DNA of 64,000 nt from a bacterium (GTDB lineage: Bacteria > Vulcanimicrobiota > Vulcanimicrobiia > Vulcanimicrobiales > Vulcanimicrobiaceae). This document shows, piece by piece, positions 3,613 to 21,076 of the stretch. Within the stretch, counting starts at the first letter, position 1, and every line of letters begins with the position of its first letter. Where the stretch lies: contig JAKBKY010000004.1 of assembly GCA_021832345.1 (NCBI GenBank), positions 1-64,000 of the forward strand, read 5' to 3'. The translations under genes and the position numbers were made by a program. Under the pieces are notes generated by a model. It did no database searches and was not told where the DNA came from. It worked only from the letters and a program-made list of their open reading frames with translations.

Positions 3613-4368
3613 CTAGATTGGGATCGGGCCTACTTCGCTGCCCGCTAAGAACTGCCGCACGATGGGATTGTCGGACCTCTTGATCTCTTCCGGGGTCCCG
3701 AAGGCGATGATCGTGCCTTCGAAGAGCATGGCTATGTAATCCGCCATCATGAAGATGGACCGAAGGTCTTGCGAGATGACGACGGCCGTGCCGTTGAGCT
3801 TCTTACGCAAGGCCACGATCATATTGGTGATCAGATGTGTGACGATCGGATCGAGGCCCGTGGTCGGCTCATCGTAGAGAATCAGTTCCGGACGGGTGAC
3901 GATGGAGCGCGCGAATCCAGCCCGTTTGAGCATGCCGCCCGAGAGTTCGCTCGGCAGGAGTTCCGAGGAGCCGGCCAGCCCCACGCTCTCCAAAGCGTCG
4001 TGCACGATGTGCAGGATCTCCGGCTCCGATAGCTCCGTATTCTCGCGCAGCGGCAGAGCCACGTTGTCACCGATCGTCATGCTGTCCAAGAGCGCTGCAA
4101 ACTGAAACGAGAGACTGATCTTCTGGCGCAGTGCAGCAAGATCTCGTTCGGGGAGGTGACAGAGATCGTGATCTCCGATGTAGACGTGTCCCGAATCCGG
4201 CGGCCGCAGCGCATCGAGCAGGTGCAGGATCGTGGACTTACCGGCGCCCGAGAGACCGATGACGCAGGTGATGGCACCCTCCATGATGTCGAGCGAACAG
4301 TTCTTCAGGACGACGTGGTCGCCGTAGGTGAGTGTGACATCATCCAGGCGGGCGAAGACCTTGCCCAT
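3613..4368 (-). CDS. mlaF: Mla-type ABC transporter ATP-binding protein
   Basis: This is the cytoplasmic ATPase that powers the MlaE permease. It has about 251 residues with every ABC motif present: Walker A GLSGAGKST, Q-loop LSFQFAALLDSMT, signature LSGGMLKRAG and Walker B LILYDEPTTGLDP. The signature sequence LSGGMxKR is characteristic of the Mkl/MlaF branch. The ATG at 4366-4368 shares one base with the mlaE stop (TGATG), which implies coupled translation. The open frame runs about 90 codons further upstream, but that extension reads mlaE in another frame and is not part of the protein. The predicted final residues VGPIPI have no obvious function. Confidence 0.93.
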   Translation of the reverse strand: MGKVFARLDDVTLTYGDHVVLKNCSLDIMEGAITCVIGLSGAGKSTILHLLDALRPPDSGHVYIGDHDLCHLPERDLAALRQKISLSFQFAALLDSMTIGDNVALPLRENTELSEPEILHIVHDALESVGLAGSSELLPSELSGGMLKRAGFARSIVTRPELILYDEPTTGLDPIVTHLITNMIVALRKKLNGTAVVISQDLRSIFMMADYIAMLFEGTIIAFGTPEEIKRSDNPIVRQFLAGSEVGPIPI

Positions 4369-5144
4369 CAGCCTCCACCGAAGAGGATGTACGAGAGGAT
4401 GAAGTTGGAGATGAAGATCAGGATAATTGAGATGACGACGGCACCGGTAGTTGAGCGGCCCACCCCGGAGGCACCGCCGCGCGTCTTGAGTCCTTGATAC
4501 GAGCCCACCAGTGCGATGATCAGCGCAAAGAACAGCGACTTGAGTAACCCTTTCATGACGTCGGGAAATCCGATCGTTTGGCGGGCCGCGGTGAGAAACG
4601 TCTGATAGTCGATGTGTGCGTAGGCATGGGCGATCCACATGCCTCCGAGCACCGAGACCACGTCGGCAAAGATCGTTAGGAGCGGCAGCATCACCAGCAA
4701 CGCGATCAGCCGCGGCACAACCAGAAAGCGAACCGGCGAAATGCCCATCGAGCGAAGCGCCTCGATCTGTTCGGTGACCACCATCGACCCGAGCTCAGCG
4801 GCGATAGCCGCTCCGACCCGTCCGGCGACAACGACCGCCGAGAGCATCGGGCCAAGCTCCCGAACCGCCGTATAGGCCACCGCCCCGCCCACGAGATTGC
4901 CGACGCCATACTGCACCGCTTGCTCGGCCGACTCTAACGAGAAAACCATGCCGGTAAAGAGCGATGTCAGGAGCACGATGATCAGCGACTGCAGACCCAA
5001 GAGATAACATTGAGCGATCGTCTCGCCGAAGCGGATCCGTAGCCGCGCGATGAGGCCAAAGGACTCGCCGGCAAGCTGCGCCACGCCTCCGGTATACTCT
5101 AAGAGATAGATCGTGCCGGCGCCGAATCTCTCAAGGAACTTCAC
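4368..5144 (-). CDS. mlaE: MlaE-type ABC transporter permease
   Basis: This is the integral membrane permease of the Mla lipid transporter, at 258 residues the family length. It has five or six hydrophobic segments and the MlaE hallmark region RELGPMLSAVVVAGRVGAAI near residues 115-135, followed by GSMVVTEQIEALRSMGISP. The start is a GTG that overlaps the TGA of the upstream small gene (GTGA), and its own stop overlaps the mlaF ATG. The set mlaE-mlaF-mlaD lacks neighbouring MlaA, MlaB or MlaC genes, as in many non-proteobacterial Mla loci. Confidence 0.92.
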   Translation of the reverse strand: MKFLERFGAGTIYLLEYTGGVAQLAGESFGLIARLRIRFGETIAQCYLLGLQSLIIVLLTSLFTGMVFSLESAEQAVQYGVGNLVGGAVAYTAVRELGPMLSAVVVAGRVGAAIAAELGSMVVTEQIEALRSMGISPVRFLVVPRLIALLVMLPLLTIFADVVSVLGGMWIAHAYAHIDYQTFLTAARQTIGFPDVMKGLLKSLFFALIIALVGSYQGLKTRGGASGVGRSTTGAVVISIILIFISNFILSYILFGGG

Positions 5145-5482
5145 GACGGCGCGCCCAAAGTGCGCAGCTCGTCGAGCACGGCACCGGTCGCTTCGATGCG
5201 TTTGGCAACGACCGTTCTCTCCGCTGCCAGATTGAACGCCACTTGCTGCACCCTGCTCAATCGCCGGTCGACATCGCCAAGCTGCGCCCTCGCCTCACGC
5301 TCGAATCCGGAAAAATAGGTAGCTACGGCCCGGGCATACGAGGCTACCGTGGCCTCATCGAGCGATCCCTCGGCGAGCGCCGATTCGATTGTGCGCTGCG
5401 CTGCGAGCAAGCGCCGATCCGTGATGTGAAAGCCGGCGACCCGCTGCGCCAACCGCGCAATAGCGGTTCGGTCACCCTGCAT
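5141..5482 (-). CDS. Small helical protein of unknown function, coupled to mlaE
   Basis: It encodes 113 residues, rich in Ala, Arg, Glu and Leu, and almost certainly all-helical; the second half (about 45-105) has the heptad look of a coiled coil. No cysteine, signal peptide or membrane segment is seen. Its 5' end overlaps the 3' end of rph by 11 bases and its stop overlaps the mlaE start, so it is translated as part of the rph-mla chain. I do not recognise the family. Its position between an RNase and an Mla transporter suggests an accessory role for either, but the sequence does not say which. Confidence 0.6.
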
Positions 5483-6215
5483 GTGTGAGTACCGAGAGAC
5501 CGGCCTGCGATAACGCGGCGCGCTGTCGGCTCATGAGGCTCACGATTCCCGACTGCGCGAGACTGAGTAACGATTCGAGCTGAAGGCGATCGAAGGGTTC
5601 TGCCTCGGCCGTTCCCTGCAGTTCCACAAAGCGACCTTGGTCCGTCATCGCGACGTTCATGTCGACGTGTGCTTGGCTGTCCTCATCGTAGGCAAGATCA
5701 AGCATCGGCACGCCACCGACAATTCCGACGCTCGTCGCCGCTACTGCAGCCGTCAGCGGCCAAGCAGGTCGCGTCGAATCGAACTGCGTCGCTAGGGCCA
5801 GGGCTAAGGCGACGTAGGCCCCGGTGAGTGCCGCCGTGCGCGTACCGCCGTCGGCCTGTAGGACGTCGCAATCGATCCAGATGCTGCGCTCACCGAGCTT
5901 GGCGAGATCGACGACCGCGCGCAACGAGCGCCCAATGATGCGCTGTATTTCATGGGTTCGCCCACCGACGCGGCCCTTGCTCGACTCGCGCTGGGTGCGT
6001 TCCGAGGTCGCTCGCGGCAGCATCGCGTACTCGGCGGTAACCCAACCCGTTCCGCGTCCCCGCATCCACGGCGGGACGCGGTCTTCGAGCGTCGCCGCAC
6101 ACAGCACCCGGGTGTTGCCGACCGAAATCAACGCACTCCCTTCGGCGTACTTAAGATAGTTCGGCTCGATGCTTACCTGCCGCAACTCGTCTGGGCGGCG
6201 TCCGTCGCTGCGCAT
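5472..6215 (-). CDS. rph: Ribonuclease PH
   Basis: This is the phosphorolytic 3'-5' exoribonuclease that trims tRNA 3' ends and other RNAs using phosphate. It has 247 residues, the standard length. It begins [11 protein letters not shown] and carries the family blocks [41 protein letters not shown] and the active-site segment [15 protein letters not shown], then [16 protein letters not shown] with the metal-binding Asp residues. Its start lies one base after the glmS stop, and its end overlaps the small gene that leads into mlaE. Confidence 0.96.
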
Positions 6216-6216
6216 G

Positions 6217-8058
6217 CTATTCCACCGTTACGGTCTTGGCGAGATTTCTTGGCTGATCGACATCCTTCCCTTCCAAATCCGCAATGTGGTAGGCCAGTAA
6301 CTGTAGCGGGATAATATTGACGACCGGTGAGAGCAGCTCGTCTACCTTCGGCACCCAGAACACATGATCGGCCACCTGCGCCGCCTCTTCATCGCCATAG
6401 TTGGCAACGATGATCACGGGCGCTTCACGCGCGCGAGACTCCATTAAATTCGAGAGCATCTTCTCGCGAACGCGCCCGTCGGTCACAATCCCGATCACCG
6501 GCACGGCAGGATCCAGCAATGCGATCGGCCCGTGTTTCATCTCACCCGCGGCGTAGCCCTCAGCGTGGATGTACGCGATCTCCTTCAGCTTCAGCGCACC
6601 TTCAAGAGCTGTTGGGAAGTTGACGTAGCGACCGAGAAAGAGTACGCTCTGCGCCTTGCGGATCTGCTTTGCAACGCGTCGCACGTCGTCTGATGCATTG
6701 AGCAGCAGGTCGATGGCCGCCGGCAGAAGCTTGGTTCCATCGGCGATAGCGCGCAGACGATCGACCGGCGTACTCTGACGAAGCGCTGCTAGATAGAGCG
6801 CAAAAAGTGTCATCACCGTGACCTGCGAGACGTAGGTCTTCGTGGCGGCTACGCCGATCTCGGGGCCGCCGCGCGTGAAGAGCGTGGCGTCGGCCACGCG
6901 ACTCAAATGTGAGCCCAACGCGTTACAGATTCCCAGGACCGTCGAGTGGGCACCCTTGGCGATACGCACGGCCTCGATCGTATCGGCCGTCTCACCGGAC
7001 TGTGACATCGCGATCGTCAAGGCATTGCCATCTACTACGGGATCACCGTAGCGAAACTCGCTTGCCACTTCCATCTCCACCGGAAGATGAACCAGCGATC
7101 GAAGGAGATACATCCCGACCATGCCGGCATAGTACGCCGTCCCGCAGCCGGTAATCGCGATCTTTCCAATCGCGCGCAACCGTTCTGGCGTCACGTCGCC
7201 AAGCTCCGCGGCTAGCGTTACCTGGTTGAGGTCGTCGATGCGCCCGCTCAGCGTCTCCTTTATGACACGTGGCTGCTCGAAGATCTCCTTGAGCATGAAG
7301 TGCTTGAAGCCACCCTTCTCCGCCGCACCCATATCCCACGCTATCTGCACGACGTCGCGCTCAAGTTCTTTCCCGTCGTAGTCGGAGAGCTTCCAACCAT
7401 CGCGTCCCACGACGACGAGCTCGCCTTCCTGGAGGATGATCTCGCGCTTGGTATACTTGAGGATCGCCGGGGTATCCGAAGCCACAAACATCTCGCCCTC
7501 GCCGATGCCCACCACCAGTGGACTGGCTCCGTTACGGGCAAAGATCAGATGCTCCGGGTCATAGTTGGACATCACTCCCAGAGCGTAGGCGCCCCGTAGT
7601 TCACGCAGGGTCGCACGTACCGCCGCCAGGAGATCGCCGTTGTAATGCGATTCAATGAGGTGCGCGATAACCTCGGTGTCGGTTTCGCTGGTAAAGACAT
7701 GCCCGCGCTCGAGCAGATGCGCTCGCAACGTCGCGTAATTTTCAATGATCCCGTTGTGAACGACCGCGATACGGCCGCTGCAATCGCCTAACGGGTGAGC
7801 GTTCGCGTCGGACGGTTTGCCGTGCGTGGCCCAGCGCGTATGACCGAGGCCTACGCTCCCGGCCAAGGGTTCGCCGTCACGCAGGCGCTCCACAAGGCGG
7901 CCGAGCCGGCCCTCGGACTTGGATCCGACCAGATTCCCCTGAGCATCGATAACCGCGATCCCGGCGCTGTCGTATCCTCGATACTCGAGTCGCGCGAGAG
8001 CATCGAGCACGATGGGCACGCTGTCCCGCTTGCCGATGTAGCCAACGATGCCGCACAT
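6217..8058 (-). CDS. glmS: Glutamine--fructose-6-phosphate aminotransferase (isomerizing)
   Basis: The enzyme makes glucosamine-6-phosphate from fructose-6-phosphate and glutamine, the first step toward UDP-GlcNAc for peptidoglycan and LPS. It has 613 residues. The N-terminal nucleophile Cys2 is in MCGIVGYIG, followed by the class II glutaminase domain ([25 protein letters not shown]). Two SIS sugar-isomerase domains follow ([26 protein letters not shown]) and the protein ends [13 protein letters not shown], the family terminus. No glmS ribozyme can lie upstream because rpoZ ends only six bases before the start. Expression presumably follows the gmk-rpoZ operon. Confidence 0.97.
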
Positions 8059-8064
8059 TAGAAG

Positions 8065-8337
8065 TTACTTGATCCCTTCTTTAGTTCGGTGATAGGCGAT
8101 CTTGCCTTCGGCAATCTCGTCGAGAGCGATCGACACGGGTTTGTTGGGATTGATCGTCGTCAGATCCACGAGAGGCTCGCTGATGAAAAACTCGCGCCGT
8201 TCTGTGGGCGGCATTTCAGCAACGCGGATCCAGTTGTTGAGCTGGCGAGCGCGCTTGGTCACGATGTTGACGAGGCTAAACTTCGAGTCTGCGTGTTCGA
8301 GCAGGGCGCCGAGGTCGCCAAAGACGGTTTTACTCAT
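8065..8337 (-). CDS. rpoZ: DNA-directed RNA polymerase omega subunit
   Basis: This is the small subunit that assists folding and assembly of the beta-prime subunit of RNA polymerase. It has 90 residues and contains FSLVNIVTKRARQLNNW, the conserved omega segment in which a Lys/Arg-Ala-Arg-Gln helix contacts beta-prime, followed by KPVSIALDEIAEGKI, the second family block. It sits six bases downstream of gmk and six bases upstream of glmS. The gmk-rpoZ pairing is widespread in bacteria. Confidence 0.93.
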   Translation of the reverse strand: MSKTVFGDLGALLEHADSKFSLVNIVTKRARQLNNWIRVAEMPPTERREFFISEPLVDLTTINPNKPVSIALDEIAEGKIAYHRTKEGIK

Positions 8338-8343
8338 GATGAT

Positions 8344-8964
8344 TTAGGAATGTTCTACCTTTCGGATGATGTCATCGCTATAGCGATGGATGCGAAAACG
8401 CTCGGCCTGTAGGATCGACTGCAAGTCGTCGACCGCCCGCTCCAACTGACGCTGTTCGTTTATTACGAGGTAATCGAACTCGCGGATCGAGCGCATCTCT
8501 TCGTGCGCGATCACTAATCGCGCTACGATCGCTTCGTTGCTCTCGGTTCGCCGCTCAAGCAAGCGCTCGCGTAACGTCGAGAACTTGTCCGGCAGCAAAA
8601 AGATCAACGTTGCTTCGGGGTAGGCGTGTTTTATCGCCAAGGCGCCGTGCACCTCCGGTTTGGCGATAAGATCGTCCCCACGCTGCAGGACGCGGTCCAC
8701 GGCATCGCGAGGGGTGCCGTAGAGGTGGCCGCCATACTCGCGCCACTCGAGGAACCCATCCTCGGCGATCCGGCGCTCGAAAGCCTCGCGCGAGAGGAAG
8801 AAATAGTGCTCTCCTTCGCGTTCGCCCGCACGAGCGGTTCGCGTCGTCGCCGATACGGAGTACATCAACCGCGGCACGCGACCACGCACGGCCTCGACCA
8901 AGGTGTCCTTCCCGGCACCGGACGGGCCGGAGATCACAAATAAGAGACCGGGGCCGTGAATCAA
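8344..8964 (-). CDS. gmk: Guanylate kinase
   Basis: It phosphorylates GMP to GDP with ATP. The P-loop SGPSGAGKDT lies near the N-terminus, and the GMP-binding segments YSVSATTRTARAGEREG and GEHYFFL follow, with ATLIFLLPDKFSTLRERL in the lid and core region. The length is about 206 residues, usual for the family. I prefer the TTG at 8962-8964 because a GGAG motif lies six bases before it; another TTG at 8976 lies inside that ribosome-binding sequence. It is the first housekeeping gene of the gmk-rpoZ-glmS-rph-mla chain, and a lipoprotein gene ends about 80 bases upstream. Confidence 0.94.
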   Translation of the reverse strand: MIHGPGLLFVISGPSGAGKDTLVEAVRGRVPRLMYSVSATTRTARAGEREGEHYFFLSREAFERRIAEDGFLEWREYGGHLYGTPRDAVDRVLQRGDDLIAKPEVHGALAIKHAYPEATLIFLLPDKFSTLRERLLERRTESNEAIVARLVIAHEEMRSIREFDYLVINEQRQLERAVDDLQSILQAERFRIHRYSDDIIRKVEHS

Positions 8965-11819: not shown

Positions 11820-12806
11820 TTATCGAGGCGCCCTTAAGATGATCTTGCCGATATGGAGATTGGCCTCCAACCGGCGATGGGCATCCGCTGCCTGCGACAA
11901 CGGAAAGGTCGTATCCACGACCGGCCGTATCGTTTCTCGACGCTCCAGGTGGGGCCAGATACGCTCGCGCAAACCGGCCGCAATGGCCGCCTTCTGCGTA
12001 GCCGTCCTCGGTCGCAGGCTCGAGCCGAAGATGGAGGCCCGCCGCGCCAGCAGTGCACCGATATCCAGCTCAACGCGAGCGCCCAGCATCGTCGAGATGC
12101 AGGCGATACGACCGTCCAAAGCGATGCAGCCGAGATCCCGAGCTATCGAATCACCGCCCAGTGTCTCCAAGATGACATCGACGCCGTGGCCACCGGTAGC
12201 GGCCATCACCTGCGTCTCCAGCCCCGGCGCGCGCGAGTCCAGCGCGATCTCGGCCCCGAGATCCAAACACGCCTGGCGTTTCTCCTGCGTCCCCGCAGTT
12301 GCGATAACTCGAACCCCGAGCGCGCGGGCAAACATGAGGGCCGTCGTGCCGATTCCACCACCGGCCGCATGCACCAGGAGGATCTCACCGCCCTGTAAGG
12401 CCGCGCGAGTCAGCAAGTTATCGAAGACCGTAAAGGCATTCTCAGGCAAGGAGGCCGCCTCGATACAACTCCAGCCTTCCGGGAGAGGCAAGACCTGGCC
12501 GTTAGGCACGGCGACAAACTGCGCGTATGCGCCGCCGTTGCAGAGCGCACACACCCGCTCACCGAGGCGAGCGTCGGGGACGCCCTCACCAACCGCGCAG
12601 ATCGTACCGGCACACTCAAGGCCGAGGATGGGGTTCGCGCCTTGCGGGGGAGGATAGCGCCCCGCTCGTTGCAGCGCATCGGCACGGCAGACCCCTGCCG
12701 CCTCGACTGCGATCAACACGTCGCCCGGCCCCGGCTGCGGCGTGGGTACTTCCGCAAGTGTCAGCACCTCGGGGCCTCCCGGTTGCGAGACGATAATGGC
12801 CTGCAT
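11820..12806 (-). CDS. NAD(P)H quinone oxidoreductase, PIG3-like zinc-independent MDR family
   Basis: This is a 328-residue medium-chain dehydrogenase/reductase. It begins MQAIIVSQPGGPEVL, the typical opening of quinone reductases of the Qor/PIG3 group, with GLECAGTICAVGEGV in the catalytic domain and the nucleotide-binding motif HAAGGGIGTTALMFARALG in the Rossmann domain. The structural and catalytic zinc cysteines of alcohol dehydrogenases are missing, which argues for a one- or two-electron quinone or enone reductase. An AGGGAAAGG motif precedes the ATG. A dyad (arms 11808-11815 and 11826-11833) spans the stop codon and could form a hairpin, but it has no U-run. The gene may share an oxidative-stress role with the adjacent superoxide dismutase; that is inference. 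Confidence 0.88.
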   Translation of the reverse strand: MQAIIVSQPGGPEVLTLAEVPTPQPGPGDVLIAVEAAGVCRADALQRAGRYPPPQGANPILGLECAGTICAVGEGVPDARLGERVCALCNGGAYAQFVAVPNGQVLPLPEGWSCIEAASLPENAFTVFDNLLTRAALQGGEILLVHAAGGGIGTTALMFARALGVRVIATAGTQEKRQACLDLGAEIALDSRAPGLETQVMAATGGHGVDVILETLGGDSIARDLGCIALDGRIACISTMLGARVELDIGALLARRASIFGSSLRPRTATQKAAIAAGLRERIWPHLERRETIRPVVDTTFPLSQAADAHRRLEANLHIGKIILRAPR

Positions 12807-13222
12807 AGACCTTTCCCTGGACCCAAGCGATTCCGTCTCCGGTTTCAGCGTCTTCGAAATCTAAGCCGTAGTTCTTTCGGCCTAGGATGTCCTGACCGAG
12901 GCGAAGACCAGCACTGAAGGGTCAGGGCGTGCCTTGACAGCCAGATTCGGTCGTAACCACACCCGCGACTTCCAGGCCGGTCCAGGCACCGCCCTGACCC
13001 TTCGGCCCCCACCGGCCCGGAAGTCCGGTCATGGGTGCCGAATAGGGCCGCAAACGCCCCATACGGAGCGTCGGGTAGTATTCCGTGCAACTCACTAACT
13101 TGGACAACCGAACCGTTTCCGAATCGCTGGCACACTTTTCCGTTGCTGGCACGATGCTGTACGATCCGTCGATGCAAAATGCTGGGCAGGCAGCGACGGC
13201 CGCGCTAACGATTTTGGAGAGC
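12807..13222. other. Intergenic left flank of the methylase-HerA-NurA island
   Basis: About 415 bases between the oxidoreductase and the first island gene. Overlapping short frames exist on both strands, but none resembles a known protein and none has consistent coding character. The region holds an inverted repeat at 12916-13003 (listed separately). The promoter of the island operon must lie here, because the operon is the first plus-strand unit after a minus-strand gene, but I cannot identify convincing -35 and -10 boxes. The methylase frame is open back to 13085; the codons before 13223 do not look like methylase sequence. Confidence 0.4.
12916..13003. repeat. Inverted repeat with arms of about 19-20 bases
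   Basis: The left arm at 12916-12934 and the right arm at 12984-13003 are complementary except for one extra base in the right arm, separated by 49 bases. The arms contain GGGTCAGGGC and its complement. No U-run follows on either strand, so a simple rho-independent terminator is unlikely. It could be the end of a vanished element or an island boundary structure. Confidence 0.5.
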
Positions 13223-14254
13223 ATGTCGATCGCAATTCAGTTCCCGAATCGCGCCGCTCGCCAGCAGCCGCGCCGTACGCCATGGATCCCATCTGCCGCA
13301 GAGTGGATGAATCTCCGGCTCATCTCCCACAAGGCTGACGTGAGCCCGCTCCGCTACCCCGGCGGAAAGCGGAAACTGGCTGTGCTTGTCGGTCAGATAT
13401 TTGCGCGAGCCCAAACCAAGCCTCAACTCCTCGTCGAGCCCTTCGCTGGGGGTGCCTCAGTTGCGATCTCTTTGCTTGAGGCCGGCTTCGTTGAAAACAT
13501 CGCGCTCTCGGATGCCGACGAACTCGTCGCTTCGTTCTGGAAGACCGTATTCTCCGATCAGGCTGAGGAATTGGCCCGGATGGTAAAACGCACAAAGGTT
13601 TCAATTTCCGAACGTAAGCGCATTATCGCTTCGCGACCGCGAACGACGCTGAACCTTGCTTTCAAATGTCTATTCATGAATCGGACAAGTTTTTCAGGCA
13701 TCCTTCACGACAATGCCGGGGTCGTCGGCGGCAAGAAGCAGCGTAGCGAATACAAGATCGGCTGCCGCTTCAACCAGGAACGCCTGGCGCAGCGGATTCG
13801 CACACTTTCCGCACTCCGGCATCGCGTGACGTTTGTCGAATGCCAATCATACGAGCAGACCATCGCCATGGTCGTTGCAATGGAGAGCACGCAACGAGCA
13901 CCGGAAACGGTCTTCTGGTATTTCGATCCTCCATTCTTCGAACGCGCCGATCGGCTCTACCGGAAGGTCTTTAAGGATGCCGACCACATCACGTTCCGGA
14001 ATTGGCTAGGCTGCATTCCTGGCCACTTCGTCCTATCGTACGACGACGTTAAGGCGTCCGCAGAACTCTACGGTGACGATCCGCGCCTCATGCGACTCGG
14101 CATGCAGTATGTCGGCGGAGCGGCAAGTGAACGCCCGTTGGTCTCCGAGTTGATCATCTCCGACCTAATGCCGAACGGCGGCACCAAGATCTCCATCAAC
14201 CACAAGACGCGCTCGGTTCTGAACGCCAACACAACGAGAAGGAATAGAAGGTAA
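13223..14254 (+). CDS. D12-class DNA N6-adenine methyltransferase
   Basis: This enzyme is expected to transfer methyl from S-adenosylmethionine to adenine N6 in a short DNA target. With the chosen start it has 343 residues. Visible motifs are LRYPGGKRKLA (about 43-53, the N-terminal SAM-contact block of the Dam/D12 family), the SAM-binding motif I VEPFAGGAS (71-79), LNLAFKCLFMNRTSFSGI (143-160) and the catalytic motif IV DPPF (235-238). A Phe in place of the usual Tyr still fits the D/N-PP-Y/F/W pattern. I chose the ATG at 13223 because GGAGA lies just upstream. It opens a five-gene operon; its TAA overlaps the herA ATG (TAATG). No paired restriction endonuclease of a classical type II system is present, which points to a modification role inside a larger system. 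Confidence 0.85.
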   Translation: MSIAIQFPNRAARQQPRRTPWIPSAAEWMNLRLISHKADVSPLRYPGGKRKLAVLVGQIFARAQTKPQLLVEPFAGGASVAISLLEAGFVENIALSDADELVASFWKTVFSDQAEELARMVKRTKVSISERKRIIASRPRTTLNLAFKCLFMNRTSFSGILHDNAGVVGGKKQRSEYKIGCRFNQERLAQRIRTLSALRHRVTFVECQSYEQTIAMVVAMESTQRAPETVFWYFDPPFFERADRLYRKVFKDADHITFRNWLGCIPGHFVLSYDDVKASAELYGDDPRLMRLGMQYVGGAASERPLVSELIISDLMPNGGTKISINHKTRSVLNANTTRRNRR

Positions 14255-16395
14255 TGGATTCGATTGCGAAAACGACCGCCGGTCTCCTGGAACTGCCAAC
14301 ACTCGTGGCAGATCCGGAGAGTACGCATGTTGGCTTCATCATCCACATGACTTATGACAAGGTTACGGTGTTGACCAACGACCAGTGGAAACACCGGTGC
14401 GGCGGCGTTCCGCAGAATTCGTTCCTTGTAGCCGCTTCGTTCGACCCGGCAAATTTCGAAACGACACCCGAGGAAGACCGGACAGTCGTTCTCTTGCGCG
14501 CCATCGGCCCCAAGTCACTACCGCAGGATAACGATACCCTCAAGTCCATCATCGAGAAGTACCAACGGGCTACGCAGGTTCAGGCCACCGACCAACATGA
14601 CGGATTCGAACGCATCACGCTCTCCCGACTTCAATACTCCGGCATGGAATGCCATATCCTAGGCTCGTTTCAGTCCGATGCCGTCGGGCGACTCACAATG
14701 GGCTCCGACGTCGAAGATTTCTTCGCCGTAGCGCGACTGCGTGTCTACAAGCCAACGCCGAAGGTCCTCGAACGGATCGTCAACTTCATCGCTCCCGACC
14801 GCGTCGCCAAGGCCGAAGAGACGGCGAAACTACTCCTCGGGTCAATGCCCCAGCCCATTCCGATCGGCAACGTCCGCTACACGTCTTCCAATGCCGTGCA
14901 GCGTGCCAACAAAGCCGACGTGCCGGTCCGCATCCAGCCTCTCGATTTCCTCGCACGCCGGACCGCGGTCTACGGCATGACTCGCACGGGTAAGTCGAAC
15001 ACCGTGAAGACGATGGTCGCATCGGTCGCGACCGTTGCAAAAAAGGCGAGAGTCAAAATCGGCCAAATCATCTTCGATATCAAAGGCGAGTACGCGAACG
15101 CCAACGGCAAGGACGATGGTTCCTCACTGGCTGAAGCCCTGGGCGGTGATGTCGTGCGCTACCGCGCACTCCAGAAAACGGGATTCCGCGACCTGCGAGA
15201 CAATTTCTACCAATCGCTGACGTCCGGATTGATGACGCTGCAGTACCTCCTCGCAAATGATCCGGCTAACAGCGGTTCCGACATAGGCACCCTTATCGCT
15301 CTCTCGTTAGACGAGCCGACCAAGGAGAAGTTTCCAGACCAGAGGGCGTTCGAGGGAGCCCAGAAGCGACACGCAAAGCAAGTCGCAATCTATAAGGCCA
15401 TTCTCTACAAGGCCGGCCTGACACCAACCGCAGCCGACAACAAGGTCACGTTCGACATCGGCAAGGGTGTTTATCAGCAAATGCACAATCATAGCCACGT
15501 CGCAGGCACATCGTGCGATAGATCCTGTTCAAATGCGGACCAAAGGGCTGATCATGCAAAAGCCATCCTGGGAGACCCTTCGACAGGTATAACGCTGGAT
15601 GAAGCAGTGGATCTGCTCATCAAAATTCGGAACGTCAACAAAGACTCCGCCATCGCTAGTTCAACGAAGGGCAAGAACTGGGTCAATGAAACGGAGCGCG
15701 GGCTGCTCAATCTGCTCTTTGGCGAGGCAGATACGGGAGCCAAAATCCGCTCGGCAAAAGTCATCGGCAACGCCATTCAGATTTGGCACTCGCCGACCGG
15801 TAGCGACGACGTTCCACGCGATGTCTATAACTTTCTCAAGCAGGGACAAATCGTCATCATCGACCTTTCCGTTGGACCAGAATCCACGCGCAAGAGCAAG
15901 GCCGAAGCAATTGCCAACTACATGCTCAATCAGGCTCTCACGACAATGGCCGATGAGAAAGAGCCTCCGCTTGTCATGATGTACGTCGAAGAAGCCCACA
16001 ACCTCATCGGCTCGAAGGCTGAAATCGACTCGACGTGGCCTCGCATCGCGAAGGAAGGCGCGGCGATGAATATCGGGCTCGTATACTGCACGCAAGAGCC
16101 GTCGTCAATCCACGCTAACATCATGGCAAACACGGAGAACTTCTTCGTCACCCACCTGAACAACGATGACGAAATCAAGACCATCAGCAAATTCTACGAT
16201 TTCGGCGATTTCGCGGCCGTCATAAAGAAGGCTACGGATGTCGGCTTCTCCCGTATCAAGACGCTCTCTTCGTCGTTCGTCGTACCCACGCAGATTCTGC
16301 AGTTCAAACCCGACATGGTCAAAGCCGAATACGATGCGGCCGGCAAGAAGCCCGAAGAAATCAAGCCACCCACCAACGGAGCCGCCGGAGCCTAA
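14254..16395 (+). CDS. herA: HerA-family hexameric DNA-translocating ATPase (DUF87)
   Basis: HerA is an FtsK/HerA-superfamily motor that moves along DNA and normally works with the nuclease NurA. The protein has 713 residues. The N-terminal 200 residues form the HAS-barrel-like region. The Walker A motif is GMTRTGKSNT (241-250, Lys247), followed by IGQIIFDIKGEY. The Walker B motif is VMMYVEEAHNLIG (574-586) with tandem acidic residues 579-580. A glutamine sensor lies in YCTQEPSS (611-618), and the C-terminal conserved block is FFVTHLNNDDE (630-640). About 330 residues separate Walker A and B, and this span contains an inserted segment with HNHSHVAGTSCDRSC that may bind metal. The start overlaps the methylase stop and only three bases separate its stop from nurA. 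Codon and base composition are lower in G+C than in the housekeeping genes. Confidence 0.9.
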   Translation: MDSIAKTTAGLLELPTLVADPESTHVGFIIHMTYDKVTVLTNDQWKHRCGGVPQNSFLVAASFDPANFETTPEEDRTVVLLRAIGPKSLPQDNDTLKSIIEKYQRATQVQATDQHDGFERITLSRLQYSGMECHILGSFQSDAVGRLTMGSDVEDFFAVARLRVYKPTPKVLERIVNFIAPDRVAKAEETAKLLLGSMPQPIPIGNVRYTSSNAVQRANKADVPVRIQPLDFLARRTAVYGMTRTGKSNTVKTMVASVATVAKKARVKIGQIIFDIKGEYANANGKDDGSSLAEALGGDVVRYRALQKTGFRDLRDNFYQSLTSGLMTLQYLLANDPANSGSDIGTLIALSLDEPTKEKFPDQRAFEGAQKRHAKQVAIYKAILYKAGLTPTAADNKVTFDIGKGVYQQMHNHSHVAGTSCDRSCSNADQRADHAKAILGDPSTGITLDEAVDLLIKIRNVNKDSAIASSTKGKNWVNETERGLLNLLFGEADTGAKIRSAKVIGNAIQIWHSPTGSDDVPRDVYNFLKQGQIVIIDLSVGPESTRKSKAEAIANYMLNQALTTMADEKEPPLVMMYVEEAHNLIGSKAEIDSTWPRIAKEGAAMNIGLVYCTQEPSSIHANIMANTENFFVTHLNNDDEIKTISKFYDFGDFAAVIKKATDVGFSRIKTLSSSFVVPTQILQFKPDMVKAEYDAAGKKPEEIKPPTNGAAGA

Positions 16396-16398
16396 TAC

Positions 16399-17796
16399 GT
16401 GTCGCCGTTTAATAATCAGCCGGCCGGCAAAACCGGCCACGAAGACATTCTCTGGAATCCCGAGATCATCCAGTACATGGAAACGTGGGCAGACGTTCCA
16501 AAACCGGAGACGGCAAAACTGGAGGGCATCTTTTCGAAGGCCCCAACCATTGGTGGCTATACGCCTGTCGTGCCCGAAGTCATCGTTGCGTTCGACGGAT
16601 CGCTTTACGAAGCATCGGCTGACCAGCATGAGCCGAGCCGGCGCGTCGGCTACATCAAAGTGGGTATGGTTGCGCTTAACGTCCAGAAATACCAGAGTCT
16701 TTCCGATCGCAACATGCCGTTCGTAGACCCTATGGCTGTCAATCGGCTTCAGGAACAGAACGCCATCAGCATGGCCCTCCCAAGCGCTTATCTAAAAGAG
16801 AAGGACTACGACTCGATTAGAGAGGGCTATCGAGCCGCCATCTTCCGCCACTACTCCAGTGACAACACTCGGATCGGCACTGACAAGCACACGATGCTCG
16901 ACACGGTCATCGATTTGCTCCGGATAAATCATGCGGTTGTAAATGATGGCGGGCTCGAAGTGACCATTCTTCCATCATGCCCGAGCGAAGACAACGTGTG
17001 CAAAGAGCAGAACGTCAAGGTTTCGCTGGTAGGAAAGAGCGCGTGCCCGGCCTGCAAAACGTCGCTCTTTGTCACCGATACGCTCCGCGTGTGGGAGTGC
17101 TTCAGTGAATTCTCCTCCAACCTGGAATCGTTCAACAGATTGATGCTCGCGACCGAAGGCATTGTTCTGGCACATTCGCTCCTCTTCTTCAAGAGAACGA
17201 ATCAATTATCGATCTTGTCAAATTTCGCCTTCGTCATGGACGGACCGCTATCAATCAGCGGCGAGGCTGCGAAGTTCCACGCACCCATCATGAGTCTCAT
17301 CAATCAATTGCAGATCGATATGATCGCGCAAAAGTTAGCGCCACCGCTCATTATGGGACTCACGAAAACCGGAATGTCCGTTGAGCATTTCATGGTAAGG
17401 AAGGAAGCCGTTCCCGACGGCATCGCCTTTCCGCTAACCGACGAATACCGTTACACCAACATCGTAGGCGGAAACGTGCGCACAAGACCATTCGGTGAGG
17501 AATTCTACTACGGCCAAGACGTCCTGCTCAAGACAGATGAAGGACGGCAATTTCTTATCTCGCTGCCATACCCGTGGGACTCGAAACAAGAGCAGGGATT
17601 CAAAAAGAATCGCTTCGATCTGACGCATTATCGGAACGTGGATACGGCTATCGGCATCATCAACATGTTCCAGTCCGACCTGTACGAAAATTCGATGGTC
17701 CCGGTAATCCTCGCCCACGAATACGCATCCATCAGCCTCACGCCGGGCGGCAAGATTCTCGACTTGGTTACGGCCAGAGCGCTCGGCGCAGCATGA
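16399..17796 (+). CDS. nurA: NurA-domain nuclease, partner of HerA
   Basis: NurA is a manganese-dependent 5'-3' exonuclease and single-strand endonuclease that forms a complex with HerA. The protein has 465 residues. The catalytic pattern is visible: VIVAFDGSL (Asp66), NFAFVMDGPLS (Asp281) and ILAHEYASISL (His440-Glu441), matching the family's three acidic blocks. An insertion with Cys194, Cys201, Cys216 and Cys219 (ending CPACK) looks like a zinc-binding knuckle not found in the archaeal enzymes I know. The gene follows herA immediately, and its TGA overlaps the next ATG (ATGA). Archaeal HerA-NurA acts with Mre11-Rad50 in end resection. The bacterial setting beside a methyltransferase suggests a defence or mobile-DNA role instead; that is inference. 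Confidence 0.82.
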   Translation: MSPFNNQPAGKTGHEDILWNPEIIQYMETWADVPKPETAKLEGIFSKAPTIGGYTPVVPEVIVAFDGSLYEASADQHEPSRRVGYIKVGMVALNVQKYQSLSDRNMPFVDPMAVNRLQEQNAISMALPSAYLKEKDYDSIREGYRAAIFRHYSSDNTRIGTDKHTMLDTVIDLLRINHAVVNDGGLEVTILPSCPSEDNVCKEQNVKVSLVGKSACPACKTSLFVTDTLRVWECFSEFSSNLESFNRLMLATEGIVLAHSLLFFKRTNQLSILSNFAFVMDGPLSISGEAAKFHAPIMSLINQLQIDMIAQKLAPPLIMGLTKTGMSVEHFMVRKEAVPDGIAFPLTDEYRYTNIVGGNVRTRPFGEEFYYGQDVLLKTDEGRQFLISLPYPWDSKQEQGFKKNRFDLTHYRNVDTAIGIINMFQSDLYENSMVPVILAHEYASISLTPGGKILDLVTARALGAA

Positions 17797-18107
17797 CGGC
17801 CGCTGGATGCCGGCGCTGCACGACCGGATGCAGTTATCGCAGCGATGTCGTTACGCTATTCAAGACGAACGAAGAACGCCTCCAAGATAGAAAGAGCATC
17901 TTCGCAACGCTCGTAGCCGAAGGTATGGCTTGTGGAAACTGCTGCTCTCCTACACACATCGGATCCTTGCTCTACCACTTGCGCCAGGATGGCGTGGTCG
18001 AGCGCGTAAGAACGGGCAAGTTTCGGTACCGGAAATCTGACGACGCAGCAAAAGACTTTGTCCATGCAGGGCGCACGTGTAAGACGGGTACGAAGGAAAC
18101 CGAGTGA
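17793..18107 (+). CDS. Small Cys-rich, winged-helix-like protein of the HerA-NurA cassette
   Basis: It encodes 104 residues starting at the ATG that overlaps the nurA stop and ending in a TGA that overlaps the next GTG. Seven cysteines are present; Cys6, Cys9 and Cys13 sit in CRRCTTGC and Cys47, Cys50 and Cys51 in CGNCC, so a bound metal is plausible. Residues about 33-82 read as helix, helix, then a beta-wing ending HIGSLLYHLRQDGVVERVRTG, which looks like a small winged helix-turn-helix. It could regulate the operon or act as a DNA- or protein-binding adaptor. I do not recognise a named family, and the open frame extending to 17574 is a shadow of nurA. Confidence 0.62.
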   Translation: MTAAGCRRCTTGCSYRSDVVTLFKTNEERLQDRKSIFATLVAEGMACGNCCSPTHIGSLLYHLRQDGVVERVRTGKFRYRKSDDAAKDFVHAGRTCKTGTKETE

Positions 18108-19249
18108 GCCCCGATTCCGATCCGCAAGGTGAACCTTTGGAGAGTTTCGCCCGAGGTTTCCTAGAGAAACAGCACACCGAGCACGGCCTTGAACCGATCC
18201 GCTATCCGGACGAATCTGGCCGATTTCCAAAGCCACTTCTTCAGCGATTTGTCGGCAGGCCGCTTGCAATCGTCGCTGACACAAACGTTCTCCTTGGCGA
18301 TTGCGTCACCGGCTATAAGAAGGTCGGCCATACCGTCCTTGTGACCGGTGCAAACAGCGGCACATTCCACGTGTTCTGTCCAGAGCACGTCTTCAATGAA
18401 GTGCCTGAAAAATGCGAAGAGTTCTGCGCCAAGACAAAAGCGGACCCCAAGCGTCTTCTTGATTGCTGGTGTAGCAAAGTCGTTCCAAAGTTGAGAATCG
18501 TTCCTACCGAAGCGGTCCAGAACGAGATGCTGGTGAACGAAGAGCGAGATCGGGTTGAGTTCTTCAGAACCATAGATCCGGACGACATACCTGCGGTTCA
18601 ACTATCTCTAACCATTGGTGCCGTATTCCTCAGCAAGGACCCTCCGGCATGGAAGGCCGTTTACGGCAAGGAGGCCGAGAACGAAATTCTCAATAAATGG
18701 GTAAACGTTCTCATCGAAGGCAGCAATGCTGGAGAGATGGGCACCGTCGCATTCATGACGAGTACGCTGCCTGCTGCGGCGGTAGTCGGAACCGTTCAGT
18801 TCTTCTCGTGGGCGGTCAAGAAATCACTGCTAATCACCGGACTTGGTCTCCTAGCAGCGGCGTTCGGCGCTTCTAGACTCCCCGCAGAGTTTTACGGAAA
18901 GGCCTGGAACGTAACGAAGAGTGCGTTCGCGTTCGCGGGAAACGAAATATACGCGCCATATGGGCGTTACCTTGAGAACTTCCGCAAATTCGAGCCCCCG
19001 CAGCCGACGTGGGAGGAAGTGGGGGCATTGCAAAACCGCGATGCGGCTCTCACGAGAGCCTGCCTTTATCGGCTTGCTCGCGCCTACGAACCGCTTTCAG
19101 CCCGAGAACTCGCCGACGAACTTCCTTATCTAGGGATAGGTCAGGGCGAACAGCGAGTGCGGCAGATATTAAGCGGGAATTCGGCATTCTTCAAAACGGA
19201 TCGAGGCAAGTGGCAAGTAGGCTGGCCAAGCACCCACTGGAAGAAGTGA
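18104..19249 (+). CDS. PIN-domain nuclease with central membrane helices and C-terminal winged helix
   Basis: The N-terminal half is a PIN domain: IVADTNVLLGD carries the first catalytic Asp59 and the conserved Asn61, FNEVPE supplies Glu99, IDPDDIPAVQLS supplies Asp158-161 and FLSKDPP gives the late Asp179. PIN enzymes are metal-dependent RNases or DNases common in toxins. Residues about 213-257 contain two hydrophobic stretches (one reads LLITGLGLLAAAFG) that look like a membrane hairpin. The last 75 residues resemble a winged helix (LSARELADELPYLGIG, RVRQIL). The GTG start overlaps the previous stop (GTGA), placing it as the last gene of the operon. At 381 residues it is much longer than VapC toxins and no antitoxin-like neighbour of the usual kind is present. 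Membrane placement of a nuclease suggests a signal- or damage-triggered effector; this is inference. Confidence 0.75.
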   Translation: MSPDSDPQGEPLESFARGFLEKQHTEHGLEPIRYPDESGRFPKPLLQRFVGRPLAIVADTNVLLGDCVTGYKKVGHTVLVTGANSGTFHVFCPEHVFNEVPEKCEEFCAKTKADPKRLLDCWCSKVVPKLRIVPTEAVQNEMLVNEERDRVEFFRTIDPDDIPAVQLSLTIGAVFLSKDPPAWKAVYGKEAENEILNKWVNVLIEGSNAGEMGTVAFMTSTLPAAAVVGTVQFFSWAVKKSLLITGLGLLAAAFGASRLPAEFYGKAWNVTKSAFAFAGNEIYAPYGRYLENFRKFEPPQPTWEEVGALQNRDAALTRACLYRLARAYEPLSARELADELPYLGIGQGEQRVRQILSGNSAFFKTDRGKWQVGWPSTHWKK

Positions 19250-19279
19250 GTCCTCTTCGGGAATCCAAGCAGGTAATGA

Positions 19280-19570
19280 GACTTCCAAGGACGATCTGAT
19301 CCATCGCTTGGCACGCCGAAAGAAGCGCCCGACCACGGCCACAAGAAATCCACACGCTACGCTCTGCAACAGCGTGCCAAAAAACTGCGCCCGCAGGTCC
19401 TCAATATCCGTACCAAGATTCCATGGCCTTTCGGAGGCAACACGTACGTCTATGCCGCCATCGCAGCGAATGGCGGCATCCTTCGAGAGACCGACATCAT
19501 CGCCTCACTTGGCGAGGCCGCAAGGAACTCCCTATACCCTAATCCACCATTAAAATCTGAACAACCATGA
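19280..19570 (+). pseudogene. Coding-like open frame without a start codon, downstream of the PIN gene
   Basis: A 96-codon frame runs from the stop at 19277-19279 to a TGA at 19568-19570. It contains no ATG, GTG or TTG in frame, yet the second half reads like real protein (KKLRPQVLNIRTKIPWPF, NTYVYAAIAANGGILRET, then DIIASLGEAARNSLY) and has coding-like third positions. It may be the 3' remnant of another cassette gene, or a gene starting at an unusual codon. I do not recognise the family. Confidence 0.4.
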
Positions 19571-19605
19571 AAAAGCCGAAACCCTGATGAACTCAGGCGT
19601 TCGGC
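19570..19605 (-). terminator. Rho-independent terminator of queA
   Basis: Read on the minus strand, GCCGAA and TTCGGC arms (19575-19580 with 19600-19605) enclose a second stem (CCTGA with TCAGG) and a five-base loop, followed directly by TTTTT. It lies 36 bases after the queA stop and marks the end of the long carB-to-queA transcription unit. It also closes the right side of the island. Confidence 0.8.
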
Positions 19606-19640
19606 GCTGTCGGCGGTGATCTACCAGGGGTAACTTCCGT

Positions 19641-20705
19641 CTAGGGCGCGGCGCGAGGCTCGATCAGCATTGCGTCACCAAACGAAAAGAAGCGGTACCG
19701 CCGGCGAACGGCCTCTTCGTATGCCTGCAGCACCCGCCGGCGTCCACCGAAGGCACTGACCAGAACCAACAACGACGACGCCGGGAGGTGAAAGTTCGTG
19801 ATGAGCGCGTCGACGACGCGAAAGCGAAAACCTGGACGAATGAACAGCTCCGTACGCCCTTGGCCTGCCATGAGCCGCCCATGATCGCTCATGGCGCCTT
19901 CAAGCGTACGCACGACGGTCGTGCCCACCGCTACGATCCGGCGGCCTTCTCGCTTGGCAGCCAAGATCGTATCGATGCAGTCCTGTGAGATATCGTAGGT
20001 CTCGCCGTGCATCCGATGATCGTCCAGCGTCTCTCCTTGTATAGGACGAAACGTTCCAAGCCCGATGTCCAGGCAGAGGCGCGTGAACTGCACGCCCCGT
20101 TGCCGCAAGCGATCGAGTAACTCCGGCGTAAAATGCAGCGACGCCGTCGGTGCTGCAACGCTTCCCGCAGTCTCGGCAAAGACGCTCTGGTAACGCGCTT
20201 GTGCCTCGTCACTGTCGTGATGAATGTAGGGAGGCAACGGTAATCGACCGCAGGCCAGCAGATCATCAAACGAACCGCGTAGAGAGAAGGCCAGCTCCCG
20301 TATACCATCTTCTCCTACCGCGGTGACCTCGGCTTGACTCGAATCGGCAAACGCGATGCGCTCTGCGACCTTCAAGCGGCGCGCCGGGCGAAGGAGCGCG
20401 CGCCAGTGCGTCGCCTGCGGGTCGTAGCGAAAACTCGTCGTCGGATGCAACAGCAGAACCTCGACGCTCCCGCCGCTAGGAATGCGCCGGCCGCGCAGTC
20501 GTGCAGCAATGACGGCGGTCCGGTTGAGCACGAAGAGATCCCCGGGCGCGACCAACTCGGGCAGATCCGAAAAGACGCGATGCTCCGGGAGTTCGCCGCG
20601 CAACACGAGCAGACGCGAAGCATCCCGCTGGGGTGCGGGGTGCTGTGCGATCAGTTCGGAGGGAAGTTCGAAATGGTAGGCGGCGGTTAGCCGTTCGTCG
20701 TCAAT
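19641..20705 (-). CDS. queA: S-adenosylmethionine:tRNA ribosyltransferase-isomerase
   Basis: QueA transfers and isomerises the ribosyl part of SAM onto preQ1 in tRNA to give epoxyqueuosine. Family segments are present: FELPSELIAQHP near the N-terminus, RDASRLLVL, LNRTAVIAARLRGR, SVAAPTASLHF, LDIGLGTFRPI and RIVAVGTTVVRTLE. The start is unusual. The family N-terminus should fall within a few codons of 20700, but the frame has no ATG, GTG or TTG there; the nearest ATG is at 20814-20816, 38 codons too early and inside the PilZ gene. I place the start provisionally at an ATT (20703-20705). Coupling to the PilZ stop at 20687 may help initiation. The gene ends before a clear terminator. Confidence 0.88.
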   Translation of the reverse strand: MDDERLTAAYHFELPSELIAQHPAPQRDASRLLVLRGELPEHRVFSDLPELVAPGDLFVLNRTAVIAARLRGRRIPSGGSVEVLLLHPTTSFRYDPQATHWRALLRPARRLKVAERIAFADSSQAEVTAVGEDGIRELAFSLRGSFDDLLACGRLPLPPYIHHDSDEAQARYQSVFAETAGSVAAPTASLHFTPELLDRLRQRGVQFTRLCLDIGLGTFRPIQGETLDDHRMHGETYDISQDCIDTILAAKREGRRIVAVGTTVVRTLEGAMSDHGRLMAGQGRTELFIRPGFRFRVVDALITNFHLPASSLLVLVSAFGGRRRVLQAYEEAVRRRYRFFSFGDAMLIEPRAAP

Positions 20706-21076
20706 CGCCGGCGTTCGATCTCGATGAAAGTCTCGATCCGTTTGCGCTGCTCCGAAGTTAAGTCGAGGAACTGGACGCCGATTTGGAAGGTATCGCCCGA
20801 GAAGCTCCTGATCCAACGGATCTGCCCGCGCAGCGTCAGCATCGGATTGCGCTTCATCGTGAACGTGTACTTCGTCCCCACGGGAAGATACTGATCGACC
20901 ATCGCTCGCATACCGGTCGGCGAGATATCGGCGATTGCACCTCGAAAGAGCATCGCGGAGAGGGCGTCTTCGACGATGATATCGATGTACTTATGCAAGC
21001 GCACGCTGTAACGCTTGTCAACGACGGCGTTGACTTCGTCGTCGCTAGGTGTGTCTGAGGCCTGCCGGTCGCTCAT
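20687..21076 (-). CDS. PilZ-domain protein, probable cyclic-di-GMP receptor
   Basis: It encodes 129 residues from the ATG that overlaps the upstream stop (ATGA). The c-di-GMP-binding signature is complete: RYSVR near residues 22-26 gives the RxxxR motif and ADISPTGMR gives the D/NxSxxG motif. FQIGVQFLDLT near the end is also typical of the PilZ barrel. A longer frame reading upstream only covers the previous gene in another frame and is not used. A type IV pilus cluster lies in the same window, so the protein may link c-di-GMP to pilus or surface functions; no direct evidence of this is visible. Confidence 0.85.
   Translation of the reverse strand: MSDRQASDTPSDDEVNAVVDKRYSVRLHKYIDIIVEDALSAMLFRGAIADISPTGMRAMVDQYLPVGTKYTFTMKRNPMLTLRGQIRWIRSFSGDTFQIGVQFLDLTSEQRKRIETFIEIERRRLTTNG

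Follow-up and report, generated by a model that had tools for sequence, protein, structure and literature searches.

A linked DNA methyltransferase, HerA translocase and NurA nuclease as a candidate restriction-modification-like defence

Gene content and insertion site

The window analysed here is a stretch of 64,000 nucleotides (contig JAKBKY010000004.1) from a genome of the family Vulcanimicrobiaceae. Between qor (11820-12806) and queA (19641-20816), which form the flanks, it contains an insertion with five consecutive genes of the same orientation:

12807..19640, no strand: entire insertion, from qor to queA, as defined by a relative (L118) with qor and queA 7 bp apart
13223..14254, + strand: D12-class DNA adenine methyltransferase (MTase), the putative modification component (Pfam, PADLOC, motifs)
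14254..16395, + strand: HerA/FtsK-type hexameric DNA translocase of 713 aa (DUF87, Walker motifs, TdpA similarity)
16399..17796, + strand: NurA-family RNase H-fold nuclease with a zinc ribbon insert (PF09376 relatives, AF2 model, Foldseek)
17793..18107, + strand: small Cys-containing putative winged-helix protein, an accessory of the Eremiobacterota variant only
18104..19249, + strand: PIN_2 nuclease with a membrane-like hydrophobic segment and a C-terminal winged-helix-like part, an accessory

The MTase gene begins with the ATG at 13223, preceded by a GGAG ribosome-binding site, within an open frame that starts at 13085. It overlaps the HerA gene in a TAATG junction, three bases lie between HerA and NurA, and the junctions of NurA with the small gene and of the small gene with PIN are ATGA and GTGA overlaps. 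Open reading frames and junctions confirm the series of five genes joined end to start that was described in an earlier sequence-only reading, whose gene calls are essentially right, and the lowered G+C content noted there is likewise found, with 53-58% over 13-19 kb versus about 58-67% in most flanking intervals. The insert also holds, between qor and the MTase, an ORF of 100 aa without known family (12922-13224, - strand).

The 6.8 kb which separate qor from queA in the window correspond to 7 bp in a relative of the same family (G006, L118), and the gene order sod-qor-queA-PilZ-spoIID-ruvBAC is common to both apart from the insertion. HerA was not found in the 59 relatives searched, it is present in one copy in the window genome, and the MTase is the sole D12 match there. 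The cassette is therefore an acquired, non-housekeeping and clean insertion, and the linked MTase-HerA-NurA unit in it is of horizontal origin. No integrase, relaxase or secretion gene was seen in the insertion, and no tRNA was detected in it by ARAGORN.

Identity of the encoded proteins

The methyltransferase matches Pfam MethyltransfD12 (1e-11) and carries the motifs PFAGGA and DPPF, which are kept in 39 family members. By PADLOC it resembles PD-Lambda-5_B (8e-69), the likeness to PD-lambda-5 being limited to this component, as only the _B model matches and a PD-Lambda-5_A match is missing.

The motor protein matches DUF87/HerA in Pfam (4e-13) with Walker A GMTRTGKS and Walker B YVEEAH, and the GMTRTGKS and VEEAH-type motifs are invariant in the family. 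Among solved proteins, TdpA comes closest to it (5e-19 in a sequence search, 1e-24 in a profile search). The SIR2-HerA and HerA-DUF4297 antiphage systems also join a HerA motor to an effector partner in defence, whereas the partner here is NurA and no SIR2 or DUF4297 domain was found. Filing HerA under these systems was rejected, since with 57 and 43 bits it falls far short of the curated cut-offs of 800 and 850 bits. From the mad gene set of MADS, there is only a weak match to mad8 (HerA, 3e-13).

The window NurA protein itself has no Pfam match, and PF09376 is matched by 26 of 60 members of its family (best 8e-10). A profile search against the PDB returned only de novo barrels and noise, and the identity was obtained by a fold search. 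The AlphaFold model, computed from an input without plasmid-derived rows, has a pLDDT of 90 and a pTM of 0.89, and its best match to solved structures by Foldseek is TdpB in TdpAB (7e-9), followed by solved NurA (3taz; NurA 1e-4) and the Deinococcus HerA-NurA complex. Conservation in the family is 93-100% at the acidic positions D66, D227, E233, E253 and D281 and about 80% at the zinc ribbon residues C194, C201, C216 and C219. A HerA with intact Walker motifs thus adjoins a nuclease of NurA fold whose acidic residues are conserved. Searches with Pfam, PADLOC and NCBIfam found no REase, HsdR or Res subunit of type I-III restriction-modification among the five proteins.

The last gene matches PIN_2 (9e-6), and its acidic quartet D59, E99, D161 and D179 is invariant in four homologues. 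The small protein has no family match, and a low-confidence model shows a helix-helix-helix-wing arrangement. These results bear out what had been read from the letters of the DNA as a D12 adenine methyltransferase, a HerA motor with full Walker motifs, a NurA nuclease with acidic blocks and a PIN nuclease with a membrane helix, the last in the form of a hydrophobic membrane-like segment. The Cys-rich winged-helix-like character given to the small protein stands as far as the model goes and finds no backing in a known family.

Recurrence and carriage of the three-gene unit

In a scan of 84,980 species genomes, 419 HerA relatives were confirmed, and the loci of the best 80 of these 419 were read together with five plasmid and four viral loci; all counts of recurrence describe this best-scoring set and the plasmid and viral loci. 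NurA adjoins HerA in most loci, giving 73 unique loci with both. A methyltransferase lies within three genes of the pair in 61 of these 73, mostly overlapping or at a distance of up to 50 bp, and some of the loci counted without MTase are cut by contig ends; L007, which is also counted without MTase, does carry the MTase C-terminus, 73% identical. Among nearby ORFs 67 of 310 are MTases, against 3 of 386 at a distance of at least six genes (Fisher 5e-22). Recurrence far above chance is seen for MTase, HerA and NurA only, and these three genes are the conserved unit. Carriers are Proteobacteria, Firmicutes, Bacteroidota, a Treponema, Chloroflexi, Methanosarcina and the haloarchaeon Halorarius.

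Two classes of MTase occur across the family, D12 with DPPY/F and N6_N4_Mtase (PF01555) with SPPF/SPPY. SPPF/SPPY is the motif usual for N4-cytosine enzymes. Judged by these motifs, the D12 subtype is of adenine type and the N6_N4 subtype is probably of N4-cytosine type. On the HerA tree, which comes from a quick search and has some long branches (L004, L066), the MTase class changes six times versus 41 times in shuffles and divides two deep clades, D12 and N6_N4; swapping of the class inside shallow clades was looked for and not seen. The three proteins co-diverge: pairwise distances correlate between HerA and NurA (r 0.93, 0.91) and between HerA and MTase (r 0.73, 0.58), and none of 2000 permutations was as high in either comparison. 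Linkage of a cognate methyltransferase to the DNA-cutting component, as in restriction-modification, is thus found both in the 61 of 73 loci and in the co-divergence. Four gut-bacterial loci (L053-L056) have an N6_N4 MTase before HerA and a D12 MTase three genes away.

Two groups depart from this arrangement. In six cyanobacterial loci (L001-L003, L069, L070, L076), several of them on plasmids, no MTase is present near HerA-NurA. A small upstream ORF is found there, an XRE-type regulator where annotated. In 13 verrucomicrobial (Limisphaerales) loci (L038-L049, L052), neither NurA nor MTase is detectable near HerA. Several of these adjoin genes for an aminoacyl-tRNA synthetase and an alpha/beta hydrolase, and the motor may have been repurposed. 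On the Deferribacter plasmid pDF308, the HerA gene is interrupted by an IS200/IS605 element with TnpB (L005:7926-11724). PADLOC matches near the loci include type IV REase, PbeA, Druantia and a DISARM methylase, but in only a few of 140 cases and with no control set, and an enrichment in defence islands is not claimed.

The triad is also carried by phage. In the complete genome of the temperate Vibrio phage 10N.286.55.C4_PE001 (PQ189371.1; L125:1309-5750), it lies between integrase and excisionase, in the order integrase, HerA (43%), NurA (34%), a convergent D12 MTase (32%) and excisionase. Cargo genes are typically placed in such a slot, which speaks for a part in phage conflict. The IMG/VR loci L087-L090 are likewise surrounded by tail, holin, endolysin and integrase genes. 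Some relatives are located on plasmids; many copies, that of the window included, are not part of any recognised element.

Proposed function and alternative explanations

Among the closest described systems is TdpAB of the Thermus Tdp phosphorothioation defence (PDB 8wet, 8wfd), in which a HerA-like hexamer and a NurA-like nuclease are paired with a DNA-modifying enzyme, TdpA being nearest to HerA and TdpB to NurA as distant relatives. The two differ in the modification, phosphorothioation there and methylation of a base in the triad, where the enzyme is a D12 or N6_N4 MTase, and the window NurA is longer and has a zinc ribbon. Neither TdpC nor another phosphorothioating enzyme was found in the 6.8-kb insert, where the only recognised modifier is the D12 MTase. 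TdpAB reportedly attacks phosphorothioate-free DNA, and if so, the MTase-HerA-NurA family would be its methyl-marking counterpart.

We consider it likely that the triad is a three-gene defence of restriction-modification type, in which methylation marks self and a TdpAB-like HerA-NurA destroys unmarked DNA. The MTase would mark the host DNA, a HerA hexamer would translocate along duplex DNA and feed a docked NurA dimer, and NurA would shred the fed DNA by exonucleolytic degradation of the duplex, motor and nuclease steps being modelled on solved relatives. Methylated self DNA would be spared, either as the mark blocks loading or translocation, or with the MTase acting as a site-specific recruiter. 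Because an MTase of either chemistry is retained, we infer that methylation protects self DNA; that the methylation state would license cutting, and at which step, is proposed in the same sense. The archaeal and Deinococcus HerA-NurA pairs are not known to have a linked methyltransferase. These have the same motor and nuclease folds and low sequence similarity to the window family (PDB 9x1m, 7f6d). Purified HerA-NurA of T. kodakarensis degrades both duplex strands exonucleolytically from the ends, and its authors suggest antiviral defence (PMC12977600). Against the proposal, known HerA-NurA needs DNA ends, which does not account for recognition of unmodified DNA by sequence.

The MTase-HerA-NurA unit is consistent with self-marking and destruction of unmarked DNA, and the proposal builds on directly observed gene identity, catalytic motifs, tight linkage, co-divergence, horizontal mobility and phage carriage. 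It is supported by the MTase linkage, the clade-specific MTase class, the joint divergence and the two marking chemistries combined with the same motor and nuclease, and further by TdpA and TdpB as nearest structures, the phage triad, the viral contigs with tail, holin and integrase genes, the clean insertion absent from relatives and the duplex degradation in T. kodakarensis. Against it stand the cyanobacterial loci without MTase and the solitary verrucomicrobial HerA, and adjacency together with co-divergence falls short of proof that the mark protects.

A further point against it is that a similar gene set in Thermus serves DNA donation, and this is the most serious alternative: HerA-NurA would pump and trim DNA for export, and the MTase would mark or nick transfer sites. 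In the ICETh1 operon of Thermus thermophilus, the type IIG enzyme Tth111II is followed by NurA, the HerA-family ATPase TdtA and an N4/N6 MTase, and both NurA and TdtA are required for donation (PMC5365140). The operon thus shares motor, nuclease and methylase with the triad, and some triad relatives are on plasmids. However, it belongs to an integrative element with its own recombinase, its gene order is different and its proteins are shorter (TdtA 568 aa, TTC1878 377 aa), whereas in the window insert neither a type IIG enzyme nor integrative-element genes surround NurA-HerA and integrase, relaxase and secretion genes are lacking. As a temperate phage moreover holds the triad in a cargo slot, we regard a transfer module as unlikely.

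The sequence-only reading had proposed an abortive system of all five genes, with HerA-NurA sensing and the PIN nuclease as essential effector. The GTGA and ATGA overlaps couple the genes and the PIN quartet is intact, but PIN is missing from all other triad loci read, and its homologues are solitary in four other Eremiobacterota genomes. For the small protein a single homologue is convincing; it is 58% identical and encoded directly 3' of NurA in the Eremiobacterota locus L007 (L007 and L092 are the same contig and count as one locus here). In the 149 genomes searched from the phylum, and in plasmids, neither gene was found linked to the triad apart from this case for the small gene. The five genes as one conserved system are thereby not supported; of the co-occurrence expected elsewhere, that of all five fails and that of the triad holds. 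Since PIN relatives are solitary and the small gene is convincing in one other locus only, an abortive PIN step is an optional add-on at best, and the five-gene proposal is quite improbable. Both proteins are local accessories outside the conserved system, possibly a regulator and a backup effector. The stand-alone PIN_2 proteins (L100-L103) also have the hydrophobic segment and the C-terminal winged-helix-like part, and in the last two a protein of about 345 aa without known family precedes PIN. The cassette in L007 is followed (4336-8494) by genes for a HIT-domain protein, a membrane protein and a protein of 864 aa that has no family match and, judged by eye, in part resembles a synthase and MazG; this may be a further conflict cassette.

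Slightly less probable still is that HerA-NurA serves DNA repair by end resection, as a housekeeping or mobile function, and that the methylase is linked to it by chance. The first description of the pair was as a DNA-repair pair of archaea, and some of the 13 verrucomicrobial loci with HerA and without NurA or MTase lie beside an aminoacyl-tRNA synthetase gene; the cassette is, however, inserted into a conserved gene block and absent from the relatives searched, and the MTase linkage far above chance, the co-divergence and the prophage carriage do not fit. Least probable is a counter-measure of a phage or element, in the form of a superinfection-exclusion or addiction cassette that benefits the carrying element and not the host, since, even with the triad in prophages and a temperate phage and with restriction-modification units often acting as addiction modules, the window copy and many others are in no recognised element and the idea overlaps mechanistically with a restriction-modification-like defence.

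Returning to this defence, the triad is found repeatedly in bacteria and archaea and in at least one phage, and it has the look of a restriction-modification-type system not described before; a search of full-text literature, with preprints and most subscription journals outside its scope, gave no description of it as a defence. More tentatively, it may represent a widespread and so far undescribed class of modification-dependent defence, present in bacteria, archaea and a phage, in which one HerA-NurA shredder is licensed by the absence of an m6A-type or m4C-type mark. The methylation state would then be sensed while the DNA is being translocated, and not by a site-specific endonuclease. If the restriction-modification-like reading is right, the two natural versions, which join different methylation chemistries to one and the same machine, allow a direct test of how a processive and seemingly sequence-blind machine perceives a methyl mark. 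There would then be a class of restriction-modification-like systems in whose nuclease arm a ring motor feeds NurA, and HerA-NurA, long discussed as DNA repair, would be tied to immunity in bacteria and archaea.
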